A program made the position numbers and the translations under genes. The notes under the pieces are model-generated. The model saw only the letters and a list, made by a program, of their open reading frames with translations. It had not been told where the DNA came from and did not search any database. Shown here piece after piece: positions 20,324 to 31,737 of a DNA stretch of 64,000 nucleotides (position 1 is the first letter of the stretch; every line of letters begins with the position of its first letter). The DNA is from Candidatus Baltobacteraceae bacterium (GTDB lineage Bacteria; Vulcanimicrobiota; Vulcanimicrobiia; Vulcanimicrobiales; Vulcanimicrobiaceae). The stretch is taken from assembly GCA_036559195.1 (NCBI GenBank), contig DATBTN010000039.1, positions 1-64,000 of the forward strand, read 5' to 3'.

Positions 20324-20938
20324 TTAATACCAGCTGTCTGCGAGTTGGGTCAACTCGTAGAGCGCCTTGTCGAACTCGGAGGACGTCGCGGCTGCGCCGT
20401 TAGCGATCGCGGCTTGGAGTGCCGCGGCGAGGGCGGTTTCGAAGGCCGCGCGCCGGCCCCGCTTCGCGACGATCAAGGCGTCGATTGCAGAGCGCTCGAG
20501 ACCCTTGATGGCGCTTTCGTTGACGTCGCCCCGGAGCTTGTCTACTTGCGAACGCGCCCCGTCGGCGATCGTCGCGACGCGCGTGCCGTCGGCGTGCGAA
20601 ACCCCGTGCGCGAACGGTGCGTTCGGGCTGAGCGGATCGAACGAGCCGTACGAGCGGCCGTAGCGCCGGTAGAGTTCGCCGAGTTCGCGTCGCGTACGTT
20701 CGCGAATTTCGTGGACGCGCTCGCGAAATGTGGCCATGGCGGCCAGCAGCGAGCCGGCGGATTGCGGCGGCAGCACCTCCCCTATCGTGCGACGGTACTC
20801 GCGATCGGCTTCGTCGAGCGCGCCGATCGCGGGAACGAACGACTCGCGAAACGCCGTCTCGCGCTCCTCGAGATGAAGGCGGGATGCGGCGGCGGCGGCG
20901 AGCGCGAGTGCCAGCGGAGGGGTGGCTCGATCGATCAT
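20324..20938 (-). CDS. Unrecognised Ala/Arg-rich helical protein
   Basis: A 204-residue protein that I cannot assign. It is mostly alpha-helical, rich in Ala, Arg and Glu, with a heptad-like middle (FRERVHEIRERTRRELGELY) suggesting a coiled coil and a conserved-looking YGRSYGSFDPLSP segment. There is no signal peptide apart from an Ala-rich start and no membrane helix. The ATG at 20938 is preferred over one at 21004, because the longer form would cover the blaI promoter. It precedes the GNAT gene by 2 bp and diverges from blaI. Confidence 0.6.
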   Translation of the reverse strand: MIDRATPPLALALAAAAASRLHLEERETAFRESFVPAIGALDEADREYRRTIGEVLPPQSAGSLLAAMATFRERVHEIRERTRRELGELYRRYGRSYGSFDPLSPNAPFAHGVSHADGTRVATIADGARSQVDKLRGDVNESAIKGLERSAIDALIVAKRGRRAAFETALAAALQAAIANGAAATSSEFDKALYELTQLADSWY

Positions 20939-20978
20939 TGGGGCCCTGTTCGCCACGATCCGGTAGGAGTAATTTACT

Positions 20979-21036
20979 ATTAAAGAATTAATTGACATTT
21001 CCAACGAAAGTCGATATATTCTACTAACGAATTAAT
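20979..21036 (+). promoter_or_regulatory. Near-consensus promoter flanked by twin operators before blaI
   Basis: TTGACA (20992-20997), 17 nt, TATATT (21015-21020) is an almost perfect housekeeping promoter in an unusually AT-rich patch. Two similar pseudo-palindromes bracket it: ATTAA-AGAA-TTAAT (20979-20992) and ACTAA-CGAA-TTAAT (21023-21036), centres 44 bp apart. BlaI/MecI repressors bind paired dyads over their own promoter, so these are likely operators for the downstream repressor; this is inference. Confidence 0.7.
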
Positions 21037-21059
21037 ACTTCGATCCCTGGAGGCCCGTT

Positions 21060-21446
21060 TTGGCACGTAAGAAGTCCGCGATCCTCACCGAAGGAGAGCT
21101 TCGGCTTATGGAGATCCTGTGGCAAAAAGGCAAGGCGACCGTAGCGGACGTTACGAGTGCGCTCCCGCCGCCGCCGATCGCTTATAGTACGGTGCTTACG
21201 ACGATGCGCATACTCGAACAAAAAGGCTACGTCTCGCACGAAGAGGACGGACGCGCCTACTTGTACCGTCCGCTCGTCGCGCGGGACGAGGCGGCAAAGT
21301 CGGCGATCGGTCAACTCGTCGATCGTTTTTTTAAGGATAATTCCGGCGAACTCGCGTTGCGTTTGGTCGCGCAAGAGCGGCCCTCCGATGAAGAACTGCG
21401 CCGGCTTAAGGCCCTCATCGAACGGTACGAGGAAAACGGCAAATGA
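21060..21446 (+). CDS. blaI: BlaI/MecI-family transcriptional repressor
   Basis: A 128-residue winged-helix repressor: LTEGELRLMEILWQKGKATV, the recognition helix region AYSTVLTTMRILEQKGYVSH, the wing with GRAYLYRP, and a C-terminal dimerisation helix region. In the known systems the paired M56 protease signals cleavage or inactivation of this repressor when the sensor is engaged. The TTG start follows TGGAGG. Its stop overlaps the ATG of the M56 gene, the same coupling seen in blaI-blaR1 operons. The induced genes here are the secreted pentapeptide and later proteins rather than a visible beta-lactamase. Confidence 0.9.
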   Translation: MARKKSAILTEGELRLMEILWQKGKATVADVTSALPPPPIAYSTVLTTMRILEQKGYVSHEEDGRAYLYRPLVARDEAAKSAIGQLVDRFFKDNSGELALRLVAQERPSDEELRRLKALIERYEENGK

Positions 21447-23440
21447 ACGCGATCATAGCGATGCTCGAACCGATCGCTCGTGCGGTCGTCGCAACCCTTT
21501 TTAACAGTTTGTGGGAGTCGACGCTGCTCGCGATCGCCGTCTGGGCCGTCCTGCGTTTCGTTCCCAATCTCAATGCCGCAACTCGCTATGCGGCGTGGTG
21601 CGTTGCCATCGCCGCGGCGATCGTGTTGCCGCTGGCGACGACTCTTCCACGCATCTCGCTCCAACACAATGTGGCGTACGAGCGCGTACGGCTGACCTCC
21701 GCTCACGCCGTACGACCCTCGGCCGCAACGCTGCGAACGACGCACGCTCGCGTCGCGTCGCCTGCAGTAGACTCGAAGGCGGCGCCGTCGCCGAGTGGGT
21801 TTCGCTTCCCCGATCGGCTGCGTGTCGCCGTCCCGAGTCTCGCGGCGCTGGTGATTTTTTCCGCTTGGCTGTTGGTGGCTCTTGCGATTCTCGGGCGCCT
21901 GCTCCTCAATCTCGTACGGCTGGAAAAGCTTAAACGCGATGCGTTGCCGTTACCGGTCGACTATCGCGAACACCTCAAGCAATGGGAAGGCGCCGCCAAG
22001 GGCGTCCGCGACGTTCGGCTTTGCGTCTCCGACAAGATCGAGGTGCCGATCGCCGTCGGTCTCTTCGATTCGATGGTGTTGATTCCGCAGCATCTCTTGG
22101 AGGCGCTCTCGCGCAGCGAAATCGATCAGATTACCCTGCACGAACTCGGACATCTCCGTCGCGGAGACGACTGGACCAACGCATTTCAACGAGTCGTGCA
22201 AGCGTTGTTTTTCTTCAACCCGGCGATCCTTTGGATCGCGCAGCAGCTCGATCTCGAACGCGAAGTAGCCTGCGACGATTGGGTTCTCACGACGACGCGC
22301 GAGGTGCGTCCGTATGCGTTCTGCCTCACCAAGATGGCGGAAGCCACCACGTGGCCGCACCGGCCGATGGCTGCGCCGGGCGTCTTCGTTACGCGCAAGA
22401 GCCTCTCGATTCGCGTCGAGCGATTGCTGCGCGGCGGCCGCAACGTGCGCACCTGCATCGATTTTGCACCCACGGGCTTGGTTGCGGCGGCGCTGATCGT
22501 GCTGTTCTTCGGACTGCAAACGGTGGCGCCATCGATCGCATTCACGCTCCCGCAGGAGAGCATTGCCGCGCCGCCCGTCGTCGCGCGGCCGGCGCCCGTA
22601 GCCACTCGAGTACGGCACGAAGTACGCATCGTAAAGGTGCAGACACGTACCGTTACGATTCCGGCACGACACATTCACCTGCCGGCGCGGGATATCCACG
22701 TTCACATTCCGCCGATACATATCGATTCACCCGAACAGCGCTTCGTCGTGCCCGACCGCGCCGCACTGCGGGCGCAGATCCAAGATTCGATGCGGCTGCC
22801 GATGCTCAAGATGCAAGGCGTCTTCGGGCATATGCCGCGTCTCACGGGCGCCGGCTGCACCGGCTGCGATATGAGCGGCGCCAATCTGGCCGGTCACAAC
22901 TTTCGCAACAAAAATTATCTCGGGACGAATTTCAAACGAGCCAACCTGCAGAACGCGGATTTCCGCGGCGCATCGCTCACCGGGGTGGACTTCAGCGACG
23001 CCAATCTGCGCGGTGCCGACCTGCGCGGCGCCACGATGGAAGGATGCAATCTGCGCGGCGCCGATCTTACCGGTGCGAATTTGGAGGGAACGCAGATGAC
23101 CGGCTGCGATATCGACATTTCGCGGCTGGTGCCGGCGCAGTCTCGCGCCGTGTTGCGCGGGTGCATGGGATGCGATTTCAAAAATGCCGACCTCCGCGGG
23201 CAAGACCTGCGTAACGTTTCGCTCGAGGGCGACGATCTTCAAGACGCCGACCTTCGAGGCGCCGATCTCTCGGGAGCGCAGTTTACGGGTGTCGATCTGC
23301 ACGGAGCGCGGCTCGACGGCGCTCGTCTGAGCGGTACGACGTTTACGGGCTGCGATTTTTCCGGCGTCGATCTGCACAACGTCGATCTCTCGCATACCCG
23401 CATCGTAGGCAGCAAACTTCGAGACTTGGGAACGCCCTAA
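21443..23440 (+). CDS. M56 (BlaR1-like) metalloprotease fused to a pentapeptide-repeat domain
   Basis: Residues 1-365 are an M56 peptidase: membrane helices at about 12-38, 49-68, 130-156 and 343-362, the zinc motif HELGH (233-237) and EREVACDD with the third ligand E274. In BlaR1 and MecR1 a penicillin-binding sensor follows the last helix. Here residues 371-465 are a linker rich in His (HIHL, HVHIPPIHI around 410-427), and 466-660 are a right-handed beta-helix of pentapeptide repeats (units like ANLRG, ADLRG, VDLHG). Two modules open with CxGCD (C472-C475 and C574-C577). The topology puts this domain outside the cytoplasm as the likely sensor or partner-binding part. It is coupled to blaI. 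The ligand is unknown. Confidence 0.88.
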   Translation: MNAIIAMLEPIARAVVATLFNSLWESTLLAIAVWAVLRFVPNLNAATRYAAWCVAIAAAIVLPLATTLPRISLQHNVAYERVRLTSAHAVRPSAATLRTTHARVASPAVDSKAAPSPSGFRFPDRLRVAVPSLAALVIFSAWLLVALAILGRLLLNLVRLEKLKRDALPLPVDYREHLKQWEGAAKGVRDVRLCVSDKIEVPIAVGLFDSMVLIPQHLLEALSRSEIDQITLHELGHLRRGDDWTNAFQRVVQALFFFNPAILWIAQQLDLEREVACDDWVLTTTREVRPYAFCLTKMAEATTWPHRPMAAPGVFVTRKSLSIRVERLLRGGRNVRTCIDFAPTGLVAAALIVLFFGLQTVAPSIAFTLPQESIAAPPVVARPAPVATRVRHEVRIVKVQTRTVTIPARHIHLPARDIHVHIPPIHIDSPEQRFVVPDRAALRAQIQDSMRLPMLKMQGVFGHMPRLTGAGCTGCDMSGANLAGHNFRNKNYLGTNFKRANLQNADFRGASLTGVDFSDANLRGADLRGATMEGCNLRGADLTGANLEGTQMTGCDIDISRLVPAQSRAVLRGCMGCDFKNADLRGQDLRNVSLEGDDLQDADLRGADLSGAQFTGVDLHGARLDGARLSGTTFTGCDFSGVDLHNVDLSHTRIVGSKLRDLGTP

Positions 23441-23526
23441 CTTCAAGCCGCGTGCGCCTCATAAAATGCCGGCCCGTGGGATCGGGCTTCCTTCTCTGCA
23501 TGGTTCTATAAGGAGTGATTACCTCA

Positions 23527-24255
23527 ATGCTCGCCCTTTTCCAACTCGCACTCGCGGGCGCCCTCGCGCTGGCACCGGCCCCGGGATTGCCGGCCGTCTG
23601 CATCGGATGCGATCTCGCTCGTACGGATCTTCACGGCCGCGACTTGCACGCCGTAAAGTGGGTCGGGACCGATCTGCGTTCTGCCGATCTGCGCGCGGCC
23701 AATCTGCGCGGCGCGCACCTAGCGGGCGTCGATTTTACCGGCGCCGATCTGCGCGGCGCCGATCTGCGCGACGCGAGCCTCGCCGGGGTGGATCTGCGCG
23801 ACGCGAAGCTCGACGGCGCTCGGTTCGAGGGCGCACGACTCGCGGGCGTCGACTTGAGCCGCAGCACCTTCGCCGGGTTGCCCGACGCGCAGGTACGGGC
23901 GCTGCTCGGCCAATGCGCGGGCTGCGACGTCGAACATGTAGACCTCCACGGCCGGGACTTGCACGGTATCGCCGTCGTCGGATCGAGCTTTCGCGATTCC
24001 GATCTGCGTGGGGCCAACGTCTCGGGCGCGACGCTGTGCTCGCACTCCGAACACATCTCGCATAACGGTGACGTCGAGAATATCGGACGCATCGTTTGCG
24101 CCGACCTCGCGGGGGCCGACCTGCGCGGAACGGATCTGCGCGGGGTTCAACTCTGCGACGAGGTACGCGGCAATCGTCGCGACTGTCGGGCGGTCGACGC
24201 GGCTACATTGCGAACGGCCGCACACGCAAATCTCGATGGGGCGGTCGGACCGTAG
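23527..24255 (+). CDS. Secreted pentapeptide-repeat protein with CxGCD modules
   Basis: A 242-residue protein with a signal peptide (about 1-22) and almost entirely pentapeptide repeats (ADLRG, VDLRD and similar). Two modules start with CxGCD and continue DLHGRDLH (residues 25 onward and about 138 onward), matching the C-terminal domain of the upstream M56 protein. Further Cys residues near the C-terminus (LCSHSEH, VCADL, LCDEV, DCRAV) may form disulfides or bind metal. The ATG at 23527 is chosen because AAGGAG precedes it; an in-frame GTG at 23515 lies inside that ribosome site. It may bind the sensor or mimic its structure; this is inference. Confidence 0.8.
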   Translation: MLALFQLALAGALALAPAPGLPAVCIGCDLARTDLHGRDLHAVKWVGTDLRSADLRAANLRGAHLAGVDFTGADLRGADLRDASLAGVDLRDAKLDGARFEGARLAGVDLSRSTFAGLPDAQVRALLGQCAGCDVEHVDLHGRDLHGIAVVGSSFRDSDLRGANVSGATLCSHSEHISHNGDVENIGRIVCADLAGADLRGTDLRGVQLCDEVRGNRRDCRAVDAATLRTAAHANLDGAVGP

Positions 24256-24257
24256 CG

Positions 24258-26372
24258 ATGCGTTGGATTCTCACGGCTCTGCTCGCAATCGTCACGACCG
24301 GGGCGGCGTCGGCCGCGGCCCTCGAATCCGCCACGCCGGCGGCGATCGCCGTTCCAAGGGTAGCGAGCGCGCCTCCCACGATCGCGGATATTTCCGATCC
24401 GGCTTGGCAAAAGGCGGCGCATGTAACGATGGATTGGGATCTGCTCGCACACGGACGCGCGCGGGAAGCTACCACGGCCTACGTTTGCAGCGACGGGACC
24501 TTTCTGTATGTCGCCTTCGATGCGCGCCAGAGCGAGAGCGTCGTCGCAACCCAGCACACGAATAACGCCGGTTACGGCGCCGACGACGACGTCCAAATCG
24601 TGCTCTGGCCCGGCGGCGCAAATGGATTTCAATACCAATTCGTCGCCAATCCAATCGGCACGCACTATCAGTTCTCGTCGGAGAACACGGCCTACGAGCC
24701 GAAATGGACCTCGGTTGCAAAAATCGTTCCCGGCGGGTACGTGGTCGTCATGCGAATTCCGATGGACGTGATGCGCGGAACGTCCGGGGCCGGAGTGTGG
24801 AAAGTTCAATTCGCGCGAGCGGTGGAGTCGACGGGCAACACGTTCGTGTACGCGTACGACACGAATGCCACGAGCCCGACCGACGTGCGCTACGCCGGTT
24901 CGCTGACCGGTTTGCGCACCGTTGCCGTACGCCCGCAATCGCGCGTTGCCGTCTACGGTTTGGGCACGATCGCAGGCTCCTCCATCGGAGGCTCGACCTC
25001 GCGTGCCGGTCTCGATCTCTCGATCCCGATAACGGCGACGTCCTCTTTTTACGCCACGATTCATCCGGACTATTCGAACGTGGAGCGCGACCAGCAATCG
25101 ATCTCGCCCACGGCCTTCCGGCGTTCGTTTAGCGAAATACGCCCGTTCTTTACGCAAGGCCAATCGTCGTATAATAACTTCGATTGCGACGCCTGCAGCG
25201 GCTACACCACCACGCTGTATACGCCGGGCATTCCCACGCCTCGCGACGGATACGCGATAGAAGGCAAGCAGGGCGAATATGGATTCGGCGCCTTCGATGC
25301 CGTTGGAGTGGGACGCAGCGACTCCGCGCAGGCGTTGCGATACACGAACGGGGCGCATACCATCTTCGGCTCGGTTCAACGCATCGCCGTAAACATGCCG
25401 GGCTTCCACGACGACGCGCTCGAGGGTGGGCTCAGCGTTGGCGACGGCAAGCATCTCAGCGCCTATTTTAATTACGCAGTCGACTCGGGAACGAACGTCC
25501 TTCACCCGGAGCGCGCCAAATACTACGACGGCGGCGGAGGATGGGCTAACCAGACGACGGCCATCTTCGGCTCGTTGCGCAAAATCGGGTCCGAGTTTAA
25601 CCCGTACGACGGATTCGTCTCGCACGGCGATATCGCGGGGTATGCGGCCTACTATAGTCACGCCGTCCTGTTTGCGCCGGGCCGGCCTTTGCGCAGCGTG
25701 ACGTGGTCGGGTTTCGTGGACCGCTACCACGGCACCGGCGTCGGCCTCAACCAAACCGATCAGAACTACACCTTCGATCTGCTGACGCGGGGACTGATCG
25801 ACGTCAGCTTGAGCGCCGGTTCGAGTTTCTTACGAATGAATAACGGCGTCTTTTCACCGGTTTCGCAGAACGGGGTCTCCGTGACGTTCGGCAGCGGCGC
25901 CTCCAATGCAAGCGTCAACAACGGCGCGCAGCACGGGCAAGGCGCGACGCCAACCACGGTCGCGTTCTATACGGGCCGATTCGGACCGGGGAGCCTGAAC
26001 TCGTCATCGCTGGCTTCGACGATTCGCGCCGGAAAACGCGGACTTGTTAGCGGCGAGCTCGACGACAATCGGCAATTCCTCGATCGCGGCGGACGGTTCG
26101 AACAATGGCTGGAGCGCGTTGCCTATACGTATCAGGCCGGCCCCGACGAATCGTTCGCCCTCGGCGTTCGGCGCATCATCGGAACGCCGCCGGAGCTTGA
26201 GATCGACCAAGTACCGTCGTTTCAAAGCGGCTGGAACCTCTCGGCGGCGTTCCACCGAATCGTGGGTCCCAACGAACTCTACGCCGTCTACGGCGATGCG
26301 AGCGCGTTCGCAACGTCGCCGCAATTCATCGTCAAATGGATCCATTATTTCGGTGCGGGGAAGGGCACGTAG
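24258..26372 (+). CDS. DUF5916-like protein: CBM9-type domain plus outer-membrane barrel
   Basis: A 704-residue exported protein starting 2 bp after the pentapeptide gene. After a signal peptide (about 1-21) comes a CBM9/carbohydrate-binding-like domain (about 35-225; PTIADISDPAWQKAA, TFLYVAFDARQSE, GADDDVQIVLWPGG, YVVVMRIPMDVM). The rest is alternating-strand sequence typical of the DUF5916 barrel, with FYATIHPDYSNVERDQQ and FSEIRPFFTQGQ, ending in an aromatic IVKWIHYF-like strand. DUF5916 proteins are thought to be outer-membrane proteins of unknown substrate. This suggests the cell has an outer membrane. An earlier in-frame start at 24096 would overlap the previous gene and is rejected. 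Confidence 0.8.
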   Translation: MRWILTALLAIVTTGAASAAALESATPAAIAVPRVASAPPTIADISDPAWQKAAHVTMDWDLLAHGRAREATTAYVCSDGTFLYVAFDARQSESVVATQHTNNAGYGADDDVQIVLWPGGANGFQYQFVANPIGTHYQFSSENTAYEPKWTSVAKIVPGGYVVVMRIPMDVMRGTSGAGVWKVQFARAVESTGNTFVYAYDTNATSPTDVRYAGSLTGLRTVAVRPQSRVAVYGLGTIAGSSIGGSTSRAGLDLSIPITATSSFYATIHPDYSNVERDQQSISPTAFRRSFSEIRPFFTQGQSSYNNFDCDACSGYTTTLYTPGIPTPRDGYAIEGKQGEYGFGAFDAVGVGRSDSAQALRYTNGAHTIFGSVQRIAVNMPGFHDDALEGGLSVGDGKHLSAYFNYAVDSGTNVLHPERAKYYDGGGGWANQTTAIFGSLRKIGSEFNPYDGFVSHGDIAGYAAYYSHAVLFAPGRPLRSVTWSGFVDRYHGTGVGLNQTDQNYTFDLLTRGLIDVSLSAGSSFLRMNNGVFSPVSQNGVSVTFGSGASNASVNNGAQHGQGATPTTVAFYTGRFGPGSLNSSSLASTIRAGKRGLVSGELDDNRQFLDRGGRFEQWLERVAYTYQAGPDESFALGVRRIIGTPPELEIDQVPSFQSGWNLSAAFHRIVGPNELYAVYGDASAFATSPQFIVKWIHYFGAGKGT

Positions 26373-26419
26373 AGCAAGGCGAGCAGGCCAGCGTCCACGT
26401 TCGGAGTAAGGTGACCGGC

Positions 26420-27268
26420 ATGCTCAGTGTCTACGTCGCCGCGCTCGTACTCGGCGCGCTCTCCCCTGCTGCGGCGGCGCCGCACCCGGCGCCCACCTCG
26501 ACGCCGTTAAAAACTATCGCGCACACGATCTCGACGCCGTTCTGCAGCGCGTTTCGCCGGAATATCGCGCCCGCCATCGGGCACGTGCTCGATAACGATC
26601 GCATCATTGCCGCGAGTAAGCCGGCATTCGTGCAGTTTGCCAAAGATCACGCGGCCGCGCTGCACAACGGTTCCCAGGCCGCCGAAGACCTCGACGTCCT
26701 GCAGCTGGAGAATATGGTCGGACCGATGGTGCAGAACGTACAGCAGACCGAATCGCTGCTCGGCAGCAACGCCGCCTTTCCCGTCCGCCCGTTAACGAAG
26801 GACGACCGGCAAATCGTAACGCTGCGTTCGCAGCTGCTCGGCGTATTGCAAGAGCAAAAAGGCGTGCTCGATTTGATTTCGGGCTTGGTCGATACGCAGC
26901 AACTCGGAGAATTGCAGGCGGCCGGGCACGAGTACGACAAGGCGCTCAGCCCCGACGTACGCACGTCCAGTGGCGGCGCGAACTCGCACAACGCGCCGTC
27001 CGATTCGCCGACGACGGCGCCGGATTCGCTCGTCAACGCGGGCCTGCCGAGCAAGAACCCCGGCGGACTTCCCGACGTGAGTAAGCTCAACACCGACTCG
27101 GCGCTCGCCAACAATCCGATCTTCGCTTTTCCGCGTCAGGTCGGAACCTACCAGCAGCGCATCTCGGCCCGCGAGGACGTTACCGCGACCGGCGTTCGCA
27201 ATGCGATTCCGCTCTGCGGCGGTCACAACGCGGGCGCGCCCGCGCCCTCACCGTCGCCGCAGCCGTAA
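26420..27268 (+). CDS. Secreted protein of unknown function
   Basis: A 282-residue protein with a signal peptide (about 1-21), an Ala-rich helical core (about 40-190; for instance KTIAHTISTPFCSAFRRNI and QLENMVGPMVQNVQQTESLL), then a low-complexity Ser/Asn/Pro segment and a Pro-rich tail. The core resembles a helical bundle; I recognise no family. Two Cys residues, one in the core and one near the end, could pair. TAAGGTGA precedes the ATG, and the gene follows the DUF5916-like gene by 47 bp, so it probably closes the blaI operon. Its last 46 bp overlap the convergent hyuB. Confidence 0.7.
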   Translation: MLSVYVAALVLGALSPAAAAPHPAPTSTPLKTIAHTISTPFCSAFRRNIAPAIGHVLDNDRIIAASKPAFVQFAKDHAAALHNGSQAAEDLDVLQLENMVGPMVQNVQQTESLLGSNAAFPVRPLTKDDRQIVTLRSQLLGVLQEQKGVLDLISGLVDTQQLGELQAAGHEYDKALSPDVRTSSGGANSHNAPSDSPTTAPDSLVNAGLPSKNPGGLPDVSKLNTDSALANNPIFAFPRQVGTYQQRISAREDVTATGVRNAIPLCGGHNAGAPAPSPSPQP

Positions 27269-28836
27269 CCGCCGCCGCCCGGCGTTGCGATAACGAGCGT
27301 ATCTCCCGGCACGAGATCGAGCGTCGTCTTTGCCGGCAGCACCGTCGTTCGCGCGTCGCGTACGAGTGCGTGCCGTCCGGTTGCGCCGGCGCCGCCGCCG
27401 CGGGCGCCCGACGGCGCGACGGCATGCCGTTCGGCGAGCAGCGACACCCGCGCGCTGCCGTCGGTGAGTTCGAGCGCCCGAATCAACCCGTCGCCGCCGC
27501 GAAATCGCCCCGCGCCGCCGGTACCGTCGGCGAATTCGTAGCGCGTGACGCGTAGCGGAAACTCCCGCTCGATCGCTTCGATCGGCGTGTTGAGCGTATT
27601 GGTCATGTGGCATTGTATGCCGGAGAGGCCGTCGCTCGTGGGGCGCGCGCCCATACCGCAGCCGTTGGTTTCGTAAAACGCCCAGCTTTCGCCCGAGGCC
27701 CGCACGCCGCCGATCATCACGTTGCTCATCGTACCGCCGCTCGGAGCCGGCACGCGATCGGGCGCGGCAAGCGCCAGCGCCGCGAGCACGACGTCGGCGT
27801 TGCGCGTGCTGGTCTCGACGTTGCCGCCGGAGACGGGCGCGGGGCGGCGCGGATTGAGCAGCGTACCGACGGGCACGTCCACGGTCACCGGACGAAAGCA
27901 GCCGTCGTTCATCGGAATACTCGGATCGGTGACCGCGCGCAGCGCGTAATAGACGCCCGAAAGGGTGACGCCGTAGACCGCGTTCATTGGAAAGGCGACC
28001 TGCTGCGCCGTTCCAGCATAATCGAAGTGCGCGCTGCCGTCGCGAAGCGTCAAACGCAGGGCGATGCGGATCGACGGCCGGCCCGCGCGATCCTCGAGGA
28101 CGTCGCTGCTTTCGAAGACGCCGTCGCCGAGCGCGCGCAAGGCGTTGCGCATGCGGCGTTCGCTTTCGTTGAGGATCCGCTCCAGCGCCGCTTCGACGAC
28201 GGGCTCGCCGTAGCGGGCGTAGAGTTCGAGGAGCCGCCGCTCGCCCGTGTGGTTGCCGGCGAGCTGCGCGCGGAGGTCGCCGCTGCGCGCGTGCGGCGTA
28301 CGCGAGTTGGCTCGAAAAATGGCGATCGTTGAAGTCACGACGCGATCGTCGCGCACGAGGCGAATCGGCGGCACGATCAAGCCTTCGGCGAAGAGTTCGG
28401 GCGCATCGGCCGACATCGAACCGGGTACCATGCCGCCGACGTCGGTATGATGCGCTTTGTTGGCCGCATAGCCGACGAGCGTCGAGTTGAAATAGATCGG
28501 GCGAATGACGGTGACGTCGTTGAGATGGGTGCCCGAGAGATACGGATCGTTGACGACCCACATCTCGCCTTCGCGTACGCCGCCGTCCTGCGCCTCGATT
28601 GCATCGAGCGTCGCGCGCAATCCCCACGGCAGCGATCCCAGGTGCACCGGAATATGCTCGGCTTGTGCGATCAGCCGGCCGCGCCGATCGAAGAGCGCGC
28701 ACGAATGGTCGAGCCGTTCCTTGATGTTCGCCGAATACGCGCTATTGCGAACCGCGATGCCCATCTCTTCGCTTGCGTAGATAAGCGAACTCTTGATCAC
28801 TTCGCTCACGATCGGGTCGACGGCACCGACCTTCAT
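27223..28836 (-). CDS. hyuB: Hydantoinase/oxoprolinase subunit B (HyuB)
   Basis: The B subunit works with HyuA in ATP-dependent opening of hydantoin or 5-oxoproline rings, or in related acetone/acetophenone carboxylases. The 537-residue sequence has the hydantoinase_B blocks: DPIVSEVIKSSLIYASEEMG, SANIKERLDHSCALFD, AEHIPVHLGSLPWGL, VVNDPYLSGTHLNDVTV, GYAANKAHHTDVGG, MSADAPELFAEGL and, near the end, FRGGDGLIRALEL and IATPGGGGYG. The exact substrate cannot be read from the sequence. The ATG overlaps the stop of the CHAD gene by 4 bp, so the intervening CHAD genes are translated as part of this operon. Confidence 0.9.
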   Translation of the reverse strand: MKVGAVDPIVSEVIKSSLIYASEEMGIAVRNSAYSANIKERLDHSCALFDRRGRLIAQAEHIPVHLGSLPWGLRATLDAIEAQDGGVREGEMWVVNDPYLSGTHLNDVTVIRPIYFNSTLVGYAANKAHHTDVGGMVPGSMSADAPELFAEGLIVPPIRLVRDDRVVTSTIAIFRANSRTPHARSGDLRAQLAGNHTGERRLLELYARYGEPVVEAALERILNESERRMRNALRALGDGVFESSDVLEDRAGRPSIRIALRLTLRDGSAHFDYAGTAQQVAFPMNAVYGVTLSGVYYALRAVTDPSIPMNDGCFRPVTVDVPVGTLLNPRRPAPVSGGNVETSTRNADVVLAALALAAPDRVPAPSGGTMSNVMIGGVRASGESWAFYETNGCGMGARPTSDGLSGIQCHMTNTLNTPIEAIEREFPLRVTRYEFADGTGGAGRFRGGDGLIRALELTDGSARVSLLAERHAVAPSGARGGGAGATGRHALVRDARTTVLPAKTTLDLVPGDTLVIATPGGGGYGCGDGEGAGAPAL

Positions 28837-29273
28837 GCGACGGGTTTTCCGAAGCCGGTAAAAGCGATCAGCCCGCTAAAGGGACCGGCTTCGACGAACG
28901 CGTCGATCCAGAGCGCGCGCGCTCGCAGCAGATGTTTCTCACGGTCGGCGGCGATTCGCGCCAGCAACGAGCCGCCGTCCGCGCGCGCGAGTTCGATCAG
29001 CAGCGCGCAATCGTGTACGTCGCCGAGGGCCCCGACCAACTGCGCGAGGCGCTCGGTCGCGGCGCCAAGTTCCGGCCGATTCCGGTGGCCGCTCTCGAGC
29101 AGATAGCGCAAGCGCTTTCCGGCCAACCGCAGCGCGTGCAGGCGAGCGTCGTCGTTCTGCGATGCGAGGTCGCGCGCGCTCTCGAGCATTTCGGCAAACC
29201 GCACGCCGAGCGAGCGCCGCAGGGCGTCGATGGCCGGGTCCGCCGGCTCGATCCGCAATTGACGCGGCGTCAT
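28833..29273 (-). CDS. CHAD-domain protein, C-terminal half
   Basis: A 146-residue helical protein that corresponds to the second helical bundle of a CHAD domain: LRRSLGVRFAEMLESARD, then the family's basic helix LHALRLAGKRLRYLLES, and LAQLVGALGDVHDCALLIEL. CHAD domains bind polyphosphate through conserved His, Arg and Lys residues; known proteins have both bundles in one chain of about 280 residues. Here it is a separate gene whose ATG overlaps the stop of the first half by 4 bp (ATGA), so the two are probably translated in equal amounts and pair. An earlier start would read through unrelated sequence. Confidence 0.75.
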   Translation of the reverse strand: MTPRQLRIEPADPAIDALRRSLGVRFAEMLESARDLASQNDDARLHALRLAGKRLRYLLESGHRNRPELGAATERLAQLVGALGDVHDCALLIELARADGGSLLARIAADREKHLLRARALWIDAFVEAGPFSGLIAFTGFGKPVA

Positions 29274-29665
29274 TGCGAGACCCGTAAGAACGCATCGAGA
29301 CGGTTCTCCGCTTTGCGTTTGCGGCGCGCGACGGCGCTGCGAAGGCGTTCGATCGCCTCGCGCTCTTCGAGCGTGGAGGCCGCCCGATAAGCGCGCAACC
29401 GCTGCAGATGCACGTCTGCATCGCGCACCTTTCCCAGCCATTTGCGCAAGGCTCGAACGCGCGGCGCGAGGGCGGGTTCCTCGTCCACGCAAGCCGGGAA
29501 GTCCTCCAAGATCGCGAGCAGCCGTGCCGCGGCCTTGCGGGCGCGGTGAACGCGTTTTGCCGACGGCTTCTTTTCGAAGCGTCGCAGCGCGCGCTCCATG
29601 TGCGCGCGCGCCCGCTCGCAGGCATCGACCGCCCAATCGCCGATCGTTCCGGCCGTCTCGTTCAC
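29270..29665 (-). CDS. CHAD-domain protein, N-terminal half
   Basis: A 131-residue basic helical protein matching the first bundle of a CHAD domain: ERALRRFEKKPSAKRVHRAR with the typical K-R-V-H-R-A-R helix, RLLAILEDFPACVDEEP, and LRKWLGKVRDADVHLQRLRA. The GTG start overlaps the hyuA stop (GTGA) and the stop overlaps the next ATG, so it is coupled on both sides. A CHAD pair inside a hyuA-hyuB operon is not something I know from described systems; a role in binding phosphate or polyphosphate near an ATP-using enzyme is speculation. Confidence 0.75.
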   Translation of the reverse strand: MNETAGTIGDWAVDACERARAHMERALRRFEKKPSAKRVHRARKAAARLLAILEDFPACVDEEPALAPRVRALRKWLGKVRDADVHLQRLRAYRAASTLEEREAIERLRSAVARRKRKAENRLDAFLRVSQ

Positions 29666-31737
29666 AACGCACGCTCCAGGGTGAGAATATCCCCGTCCTG
29701 CGCGCGCCAACCCGGCGGGACGTAGGCGCAGGTGTCGTATTGCTCGACGAGCGCCGGCCCGTCGATCGCCGGCGGAAGATGCTCGCGCGTGTAGACCGGC
29801 GTCGGCCGAAAAGCGCCGTCGATAAACACGTCGCGCGTGGCCGGCGCGGGCGCGGGAGTTGCGGCGGCACGCGTTCGATCGGCGCGCGGAGCACGAGCCA
29901 GGTTGCCGATTGCCGTAAGCCGCGCGTTGACCAGCTCCACCGCTTCGTCGCGGACCGCGTATCCATACCGGCGTTCGTGCTTGCGGTGAAAGCTCTCGGC
30001 GATCGCATCGATCGAATCGCCGTGTTCGATATCGAGCTCGAAGCTCTGTCCGCGATAGCGCATGTCGTATTCGCGCACGAAACCGATGGCGGCGTCGTCG
30101 ACACCCTGCTCGCGCAGCGCTTGGCGGCCTTCCTCTTCCAGACCGGCGAAGAGCGCTTGCAATTCGTCGCAATCGAACGCGGAGAGTTCGCGTAAGACCG
30201 GCCGCACGAAACTGGCGCGCATTTCGGCGACGAGCAACCCGTAGGCGGAGAAGACGCCGGGATGGCGCGGGACGAGCACGCGTGCGATGCCGAGCTCCTC
30301 CGCGAGCGCGCAGGCGTGCAGCGGACCGTTGCCGCCGAACGCGATCATGGCGAACTCGCGCGGATCGAGTCCCCGTTCGACCGTGACGATGCGCAGCACT
30401 TTGGCCATCTCGCTATCGACGAGCGTAAGAATGCCGCTCGCGGCCGCCTCCACCGAGAGCTGCAGCGCTTGCGCGAGCGTCGCAACCGCGTCGCGCGAAC
30501 GGCGCGCGTCGATCGGAAACGTCCCGCCGACCAGGTGCGTTTGATTCAAACGCCCGAGCACGACGTTGGCATCGGTGACCGTCGCGCGATCGGAGCGTCC
30601 GTAACAGGCGGGACCGGGGTCGGCGCCGGCCGAGAGCGGCCCGACGCGTAGCGATCCGCCGTCGTCGATCCACGCGACCGTGCCGCCGCCCGCGCTAATC
30701 TCGGCGAGATCGACGAACGGAAAACGCACGGGATAGCCGCTGCCCTTGATCGAGCGTCCGGAGTGCGTGGAGCCCGCCGCCTCGAATTCGCCGACGACTT
30801 GCACCGCGCCGTCGGCGATCGTGCCGGCCTTTGCGGTTGTGCCGCCCATATCGAACGAGAGCACTTTCTCGAGGGCTAATTGACGCGCGGTTTCGGCCGC
30901 GGCGATGACGCCCGAGGCCGGCCCGCTCTCGATGATCGTTGCCGGCCGCGCCGCGGCGCGTTGCGCGGTCGCCATGCCGCCGTTGCTTTGCATGACGTAG
31001 AGCGGCGCGGTGATGCCGTCGTCGTGCAACGCCCGAACCAACCGCTCGATGTACCGGCGGACGATCGGCAAGAGCGCGGCGTTAACGACGGTCGTGGAGA
31101 AGCGCTCGTACTCGCGATACTCCGGATCGATCTCCGCGGAAGACGTAATCGGTATGCCGGGCAGCGCGCGAGCGATCGCTCGCGCGAGGCGCCGTTCGTG
31201 CGCGTCGTTTGCGTAAGCGTGGAGCAGCCCGATCGCGACGGCATCGACGTTACGAGCGCGCAGTTCGGCGATCGCGCGCTCGATCTCGGCATCTTCGAGC
31301 GCGACGAGCACGTTGCCGGAAAAGTCCATGCGCTCGCGCACGCCGATGCGATCCGCACGCGCGACCAGCGGCTTGGGGCGCGTCACGAACAGATTGTAGA
31401 CTTCGCTGCGATTCTGCCGCCCGATCTCGATGACGTCGCGAAACCCCTCGGTGGTGACGAACGCCACCCGCGGCAACTCGAGATGCATCTGCCCGAGCAG
31501 CGCGTTGGTTGCGATCGTCGTCGAATGGGAGAGCCATTCGATATGCGGGGCCGTTGCATACCGTGCCCGCAGTTCGCGCATAGCTTCAAGCACGCCGCGC
31601 TCCGGTGCCTGAGGCGTGGAAGCAACTTTGAGCGCGACGATCTCGCCGCTAGCCGTATCGACGGCGACGAGGTCCGTAAACGTCCCCCCGACGTCGATCC
31701 CAACGCGAAGTCTCGTGGCCGTTGGCAAAATGGGCAC
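29662..31737 (-). CDS. hyuA: Hydantoinase/oxoprolinase subunit A (HyuA)
   Basis: The A subunit carries the actin-like ATPase of the hydantoinase/oxoprolinase family. The 691 residues show the N-terminal phosphate-binding LRVGIDVGGTFTDLVAVD, HSTTIATNALL, EGFRDVIEIGRQNR, the central VLSFDMGGTTAKAG, GPLSAGADPGPACYG, and IAFGGNGPLHACALAEELG. The start is GTG at 31737; a TTG three codons on is possible. It leads a minus-strand operon (hyuA, two CHAD halves, hyuB) and diverges from the SOS-controlled imuA across about 145 bp. Confidence 0.92.
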   Translation of the reverse strand: MPILPTATRLRVGIDVGGTFTDLVAVDTASGEIVALKVASTPQAPERGVLEAMRELRARYATAPHIEWLSHSTTIATNALLGQMHLELPRVAFVTTEGFRDVIEIGRQNRSEVYNLFVTRPKPLVARADRIGVRERMDFSGNVLVALEDAEIERAIAELRARNVDAVAIGLLHAYANDAHERRLARAIARALPGIPITSSAEIDPEYREYERFSTTVVNAALLPIVRRYIERLVRALHDDGITAPLYVMQSNGGMATAQRAAARPATIIESGPASGVIAAAETARQLALEKVLSFDMGGTTAKAGTIADGAVQVVGEFEAAGSTHSGRSIKGSGYPVRFPFVDLAEISAGGGTVAWIDDGGSLRVGPLSAGADPGPACYGRSDRATVTDANVVLGRLNQTHLVGGTFPIDARRSRDAVATLAQALQLSVEAAASGILTLVDSEMAKVLRIVTVERGLDPREFAMIAFGGNGPLHACALAEELGIARVLVPRHPGVFSAYGLLVAEMRASFVRPVLRELSAFDCDELQALFAGLEEEGRQALREQGVDDAAIGFVREYDMRYRGQSFELDIEHGDSIDAIAESFHRKHERRYGYAVRDEAVELVNARLTAIGNLARAPRADRTRAAATPAPAPATRDVFIDGAFRPTPVYTREHLPPAIDGPALVEQYDTCAYVPPGWRAQDGDILTLERAL

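Follow-up and report, generated by a model that had tools for sequence, protein, structure and literature searches.

BlaR1 is known almost exclusively as a penicillin sensor. The window analysed here, a stretch of 64,000 nucleotides from a Candidatus Baltobacteraceae genome, contains an operon that an initial annotation had described as BlaI–BlaR1-like, with a pentapeptide-repeat (PPR) beta-helix in the position of the antibiotic sensor. The locus raises the question of which signal such a protease would perceive, and which genes are controlled in response.

Organisation of the operon

The following features were assigned:

21060–21446, + strand: blaI-family repressor (128 aa, TTG start, GGAGG upstream; Penicillinase_R PF03965, 2.1e-30, Pfam)
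21443–23440, + strand: M56 protease fused to an extracytoplasmic PPR domain (M56::PPR; 665 aa; PF05569, 1.9e-36; PF00805, 1.2e-54)
22139–22153, + strand: HELGH zinc-protease site, residues 233–237 of M56::PPR
22844–23116, + strand: beta-helix module 1 of M56::PPR, residues 468–558, with C472xxC475 at its head
23162–23419, + strand: beta-helix module 2 of M56::PPR, residues 574–659, with C574xxC577 at its head
23515–24255, + strand: putatively secreted pentapeptide-repeat protein (246 aa, GTG start; PF00805, 3.3e-31, Pfam)
24258–26372, + strand: 704-aa protein with a CBM9-like domain and a beta-barrel of outer-membrane type (DUF5916 just above cut-off)
26420–27268, + strand: exported protein without a known family (282 aa), with C42 and C266 as an invariant Cys pair

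The five genes share one strand and are separated by intergenic gaps of −4, 74, 2 and 47 bp; the tight packing noted in the initial annotation was retained, but its range of 2–86 bp was not. Hydropathy analysis indicated membrane helices in M56::PPR and signal-like N-termini in the three products encoded downstream of it, and all three of these agree with the earlier proposal of a secreted PPR protein, a DUF5916-like barrel and a further exported protein. Likewise, no beta-lactamase was found by Pfam among the operon genes, as had been claimed. A divergent gene at 20324–21004 had no match in the loci of relatives and was consequently not counted as part of the operon.

Architecture of the M56 protease

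Pfam and AlphaFold2 agreed on the placement of a PPR beta-helix at the antibiotic-sensor position of a BlaI–BlaR1-like operon. Peptidase_M56 was matched over residues 24–326 of M56::PPR and Pentapeptide over six stretches, the best being residues 520–556; at the C-terminus Pfam detected only pentapeptide repeats and no penicillin-binding (class D beta-lactamase-like) domain. The AlphaFold2 model (mean pLDDT 78.6) contains the M56 core and four long helices (residues 3–39, 45–70, 132–166 and 341–361), as well as a disordered linker (~370–466) and a confident beta-helix (~468–660), which is split into modules 1 and 2 by a short helix (564–573). The HELGH site (residues 233–237), the last membrane helix (predicted at 341–361) and the repeats, given earlier as residues 466–660, were in this way all recovered, and a two-module beta-helix on a flexible linker is predicted with confidence. 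Residues H233, E234 and H237 are invariant among 25 M56::PPR homologues. When the M56 part was compared with the cryo-EM structures of BlaR1, 8exr (transmembrane plus protease domain) gave a TMt of 0.58 and an rmsd of 4.1. At the sequence level the similarity of M56::PPR to BlaR1 is marginal (E 0.003), and the NCBIfam model blaR1_generic covered residues 134–294 only, with 76.7 of 400 bits.

Proteins encoded downstream of the protease

The secreted PPR protein has a hydrophobic N-terminus, as judged from hydropathy alone, and carries at this end the same type of CxGC head (C29xGC32) as the modules of M56::PPR, with four invariant cysteines C-terminal to it; C29, C32, C175, C195, C214 and C224 are conserved throughout 20 homologues. 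The closest functional precedent is, by analogy, YjbI of Caulobacter, a secreted PPR beta-helix which has Cys pairs at both ends and controls outer-membrane protein composition (PMC12864828). Cys pairs at both ends of the beta-helix are common to the two proteins. Proteins of the YjbI type are further characterised by a location at the outer-membrane surface and by a charged C-terminal tail on which their function depends. However, YjbI works through the two-component systems ChvGI and UzcRS, and neither a link to BlaI/M56 nor an M56 fusion is described in the part of the text consulted (PMC12864828).

For the barrel protein, the window's own sequence matched DUF5916 in Pfam with 23.5 bits against a cut-off of 22.6 bits. 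Since 23 homologues were scanned in addition, of which 17 matched DUF5916 and 10 matched CBM9_1, the DUF5916 assignment is secure. In the AlphaFold2 model (mean pLDDT 74) an N-terminal sandwich is followed by approximately twenty long strands, and a Foldseek search with this model returned as top match the CBM9 module 1i82 (TMt 0.74), followed by a TonB receptor and other outer-membrane barrels. The protein thereby shares with the CBM9/DUF5916 barrel proteins (PF06452, PF19313) an N-terminal CBM9-like sandwich and a C-terminal barrel; no solved full-length relative was found by sequence, and DUF5916 was not named in the literature searched. The product of 26420–27268 had no match to any family or structure in Pfam or the PDB.

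Promoter and dual operator

Upstream of blaI, the promoter elements are interleaved with two palindromes:

20977–20994, + strand: operator 1, a palindrome of sequence CTATTAAAGAATTAATTG that overlaps the -35 box (no mismatch to the relatives' consensus; PWM 29.4)
20992–20997, + strand: -35 box TTGACA (the window reads TAATTGACA; the word of the relatives is TAGTTGAC)
21015–21020, + strand: -10 box TATATT, located in the sequence 17 bp from the -35 box
21021–21038, + strand: operator 2, a palindrome of sequence CTACTAACGAATTAATAC directly adjoining the -10 box (one deviation from the search pattern; PWM 21.9)

The consensus operator, CTAYTAA-N4-TTARTWG, is 18 bp long and occurs in pairs around the blaI promoter. 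The two operators of the window start 44 bp apart, the corresponding distance in relatives being 43–52 bp and mostly 44–46 bp. The word TAGTTGAC, which was found upstream of blaI in 54 regions, equals the right half of the -35 palindrome. A generalised form of the palindrome gave 116 matches in 103 genomes, versus 19 for the reversed control. This operator differs from the box TACA-N2-TGTA of BlaR1/BlaI and MecR1/MecI, and 0 matches to the classical box were obtained in the upstream regions of blaI. In the second of the two clades described below, a single copy of the palindrome is located near the start codon, and at three loci (L078, L089, L090), where blaI closely follows another gene, no palindrome was found. 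Two further blaI genes are present in this genome, each preceded by related palindromes in which the core is CTAC or CTAG instead of CTAA; each BlaI repressor may accordingly have its own sites, as these core differences would fit.

Operators elsewhere in the genome and in relatives

Allowing 0–1 mismatch, the genome contains four operator sites in total, two of which are those at the operon promoter. One of the others (C35:12314) is situated 11 bp before a second CBM9/DUF5916 barrel, 31% identical to the operon barrel, and the other (C42:34504) has its start 19 bp ahead of an exported peptide of 66 aa, which carries LKIITTV close to its end and has relatives downstream of dual operators in two further genomes (L219, L221). 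Only three barrels of the CBM9/DUF5916 type are present in this genome, and no operator was found at the third (C23). Among relatives, five orphan operators in four genomes precede barrels (L228, L235, L236, L237, L239), one of which (L237) is the orthologue of the second barrel (2e-255). In the nine genomes checked the number of barrels was only 1–5 per genome, and approximately 0.1 orphan operator–barrel pairs would be expected by chance (a rough figure, for 25 loci and ~2,500 genes per genome). The remaining orphan sites have neighbouring genes of various kinds, and some of these sites will be chance matches. In the loci inspected, no beta-lactamase or PBP gene was recognised next to the operators, and no petE or petJ near them.

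Distribution and conservation

The search alignment was matched at 1e-20 in 98 of 149 genomes of Ca. Eremiobacterota/Vulcanimicrobiota, and both the M56 and the PPR part in about 60 of these 149. A fusion or assembly artefact, considered initially for the region of residue 465, is ruled out because M56::PPR is found in ~60 genomes; moreover, the PPR domain is present in each of the nearest seven relatives, which are placed in a fully supported clade. All M56::PPR genomes belong to the class of the window's genome and nearly all to its family, while in distant phylum members the matches reached E values of only 1e-24 to 1e-39 and the PPR part was not seen to be matched. The titles of the matching records name Candidatus Eremiobacterota; two records entitled 'Proteobacteria' and 'Rhodospirillales' (L100, L135) fall inside Eremiobacterota groups and are probably misnamed. 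In the one alignment search on which the distribution beyond the phylum is based, a Gloeobacterales bin (L160) was the sole carrier of M56::PPR.

In a tree of the M56 part, the PPR proteins are divided between two groups of Eremiobacterota, with 41 and 16 rows, in addition to L160; the 'non' label of L086, a short PPR protein, resulted from the repeat threshold. Since fully supported branches force at least two label changes, the PPR domain must either have been acquired repeatedly or have disappeared from the sister group. The C-terminal region of phylum M56 proteins devoid of PPR has no Pfam match, and a barrel gene also follows some of these PPR-less genes (L087, L088). A Poribacteria M56 protein, outside the phylum, carries HEAT repeats. 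With PPR, Pfam-unmatched regions and HEAT repeats all occupying M56 C-termini, the sensor position of these proteins is exchangeable, and repeat solenoids recur there.

The recurrence of blaI and secreted PPR genes beside M56::PPR, which had been proposed as a check, was observed: blaI is adjacent in 51 of 51 loci, with a 4-bp overlap in 27, and a secreted PPR gene is present in at least 31 of the 40 loci of the window's own group (clade 1), where the barrel occurs in at least 36 and the fifth protein in at least 20. In clade 2 (n = 11), which includes a cultivated species, at least nine loci have a secreted PPR gene and none of the 11 a barrel beside M56::PPR. These counts are lower bounds, as some contigs end inside loci. 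The barrel is consequently not part of every M56::PPR system, and an obligate secreted-partner model is not required, because no secreted PPR gene was seen in nine of the 40 clade 1 loci (some on cut contigs). With adjacent blaI and M56 genes and palindromic operators at the blaI promoter, the locus fits the broad class of BlaI/M56 pairs, and its status as a real conserved system is well supported.

Candidate signals

Each of the two beta-helix modules nearly always opens with CxGC, the spacing between the pairs is 102 or 103 residues in almost every sequence, and C472, C475, C574, C577 and C637 are invariant among 25 diverse M56::PPR homologues. These five cysteines and the near-constant distance between the pairs, together with the equivalent head on the secreted PPR protein, would be compatible with a metal (copper, zinc) or thiol-redox sensor, in which the paired CxGC motifs would bind metal or form a disulfide switch controlling the protease. 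Consistent with this, PetRP is a copper-responsive BlaI/BlaR1-like pair (PMC7896320), the best NCBIfam score of BlaI is to CopY/TcrY, though far below cut-off, and loss of YjbI is triggered by zinc stress (PMC12864828). However, CxxC is missing in four loci of a single genus (L061, L064, L065, L072), which keep the PPR domain, blaI and barrels, and in the Gloeobacterales/cyanobacterial protein L160; a single CxxC pair is found in L059, L060 and L086. The existence of such Cys-free members weakens the metal or thiol signal as a general rule. In addition, the operon lacks a metal transporter or chaperone, the cysteines of YjbI are dispensable for its zinc-induced turnover (PMC12864828), and the Cys caps may simply stabilise the helix ends. 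A metal or thiol signal is retained as the main rival explanation, albeit an unlikely one.

The CBM9-like N-terminal domain of the operator-linked barrels (Foldseek 1i82) would also be compatible with a nutrient switch resembling the regulation of polysaccharide utilisation: a polysaccharide would be recognised by the beta-helix or by the CBM9 barrel, and its uptake would be induced through the circuit. This reading appears quite improbable: the operon encodes neither a glycoside hydrolase nor a transporter, none was recognised behind the barrel-linked operators, and sugar binding is not known for PPR beta-helices.

The long disordered linker between the last membrane helix and the PPR domain makes mechanical coupling not obvious, as would be expected if the PPR domain served only for rigid tethering or localisation, with the membrane helices, the linker or a partner protein acting as the sensor. 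This is very unlikely, however, considering that the PPR domain is the best conserved stretch of the C-terminal half and has rigid internal spacing, while among homologues the linker shows no constraint on either length or sequence, and that the BlaR1 C-terminal domain at the equivalent position is the sensor. A resistance system (Qnr-like or beta-lactamase) was rejected as the best reading because the PPR domain follows the last membrane helix, the Qnr models scored far below cut-off and the operon has no beta-lactamase, and phage defence was dismissed, PADLOC returning only weak helix-turn-helix matches to BlaI and NCBIfam HalA scoring far below cut-off.

Proposed mechanism

An envelope signal is favoured, since the putative targets encode outer-membrane and exported proteins, the presence of Omp85 marks the organism as diderm, and YjbI provides a precedent; a cultured relative has an LPS outer membrane (PMC9758169). 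The locus probably represents a signal-transduction operon of the BlaI/M56 kind that serves to set the composition of the outer membrane, the state of the envelope being read by the beta-helix. BlaI would repress transcription from the operon promoter and from a few distant ones through the paired 18-bp palindromes, to which it would bind and which are observed at the corresponding positions. By analogy with BlaR1, M56::PPR would span the inner membrane with the zinc protease in the cytoplasm and the beta-helix in the periplasm. A change in the envelope would be read by the beta-helix, either directly or via contact with the secreted PPR protein, whereupon the protease, again as in BlaR1, would remove BlaI. 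This accords in spirit with the initial suggestion that the sensor could respond to its secreted partner or to envelope damage. Upon derepression, CBM9-barrel outer-membrane proteins and accessory exported proteins would be produced along with the secreted PPR protein. Since the latter is encoded in the operon itself, its induction might return the circuit to the initial state.

A more specific version, which is conceivable but on balance doubtful, is a homotypic loop in which the M56 beta-helix binds its secreted PPR partner and measures the free periplasmic versus the outer-membrane-docked pool, thereby tuning barrel output. If true, this would represent a new outer-membrane-capacity monitor and a new function for pentapeptide proteins.

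Relation to known systems

The operon resembles BlaR1/BlaI and MecR1/MecI (Staphylococcus, Bacillus licheniformis) in having a blaI-family repressor beside a four-helix HExxH M56 protease, an extracytoplasmic C-terminal domain past the last membrane helix and palindromic operators at the promoter. It differs in carrying a pentapeptide beta-helix where these have a penicillin-binding domain, and in an operon with no beta-lactamase or PBP gene, the output of which would rather be envelope proteins. BlaI/BlaR1-like pairs outside beta-lactam resistance are already known: in cyanobacteria, PetR/PetP responds to copper and controls petE/petJ (PMC7896320, PMC13421787). Here too a BlaI-like regulator and a BlaR1-like protease have a non-beta-lactam role in a diderm host, but a PPR sensor or an outer-membrane regulon is not mentioned in the PetRP texts (PMC7896320, PMC13421787).

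What is new is the dual palindromic operator, the putative few-site regulon and the two-module, mostly CxGC-headed beta-helix as putative sensor. The operator pair, the regulon with its further barrels and small exported peptide, and the paired CxGC motifs go beyond the initial annotation, as do the other C-terminal domains on phylum M56 proteins and the known non-beta-lactam pairs. Its claim that the layout is without described precedent held in the literature searched, where M56, BlaR1 and pentapeptide repeats were not found together; InterPro may list the domain pair without a study. Papers naming both BlaR1 and pentapeptide repeats are, judging by the titles and abstracts available, antibiotic-resistance reviews.

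The same switch is in this case conserved in a little-studied soil bacterial phylum, with a putative beta-helix sensor and an operator-defined outer-membrane gene set. It links two questions, namely the role of secreted pentapeptide proteins and the signals of M56/BlaI pairs lacking a penicillin-binding domain. The system is testable, because a cultivated carrier exists: in genome G090, which we infer to be that of Vulcanimicrobium alpinus WC8-2, blaI lies at about 1,362,464–1,362,844 on the minus strand and M56::PPR at 1,360,347–1,362,461, and two PPR genes are present.

Paralogous pairs and other putative M56 sensor domains

The genome that carries the operon also encodes two paralogous blaI–M56 pairs (L002 and L003, on contigs C66 and C73), the C-termini of which appear TonB-like by eye. 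The promoters of these pairs contain palindromes with the cores CTAC and CTAG, as opposed to CTAA, and this difference in sequence suggests that each pair has its own operator specificity.

A Poribacteria M56 protease adjoining blaI (L157, 1276-3981) has a C-terminal domain of HEAT repeats, predicted to be another repeat-solenoid sensor. In a further group of M56 proteins from Eremiobacterota (L073, L074, L084, L085, L087, L088, L127 and L130) the C-terminal region ends in an HGFxNLSxxQLxxLKxxGI-like motif, and no Pfam family was found for this region in the three members scanned. The M56 genes of L087 and L088 are followed downstream by a CBM9/DUF5916 barrel gene.

An M56–pentapeptide fusion lacking CxxC was observed in a Gloeobacterales bin (L160, 1-1866), in a gene cut by the contig end. 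Two records titled Proteobacteria and Rhodospirillales (L100, L135) are placed among Eremiobacterota, and are probably misnamed bins.

Neighbourhood of the M56–pentapeptide locus

Convergent to the operon lie the following genes, the first assigned by Pfam and the second by its appearance:

27223-31737, minus strand, hydantoinase/oxoprolinase B gene and neighbouring putative A-subunit gene

The B gene is kept in the same place in several relatives (L035, L036, L050-L053 and L055). An additional pentapeptide-repeat gene of ~210 aa is located directly upstream of blaI in L036 (8685-9329, the same as L105 36-680). In L061, L064 and L072 a second barrel gene is divergent from blaI, and the operator region consequently sits between two barrel-bearing transcription units.

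Operators away from blaI–M56 pairs

The operator precedes a small exported or membrane peptide of ~52-66 aa in three genomes (L182, the C42:34504 region of the operon's own genome G000; L219; L221). Near its end the peptide carries (P)LKII(A/T)TV, a motif similar to the TPLKTIxH with which the operon's fifth protein begins in its mature form.

Orphan operators were likewise found near an MFS transporter gene, there as dual sites, in two genomes (L229, L230), near a secreted protein similar by eye to an acyl-CoA thioesterase/BAAT N-terminus in two genomes (L223, L224), and, in one genome (L220), near an exported protein that looks retropepsin-like by eye.
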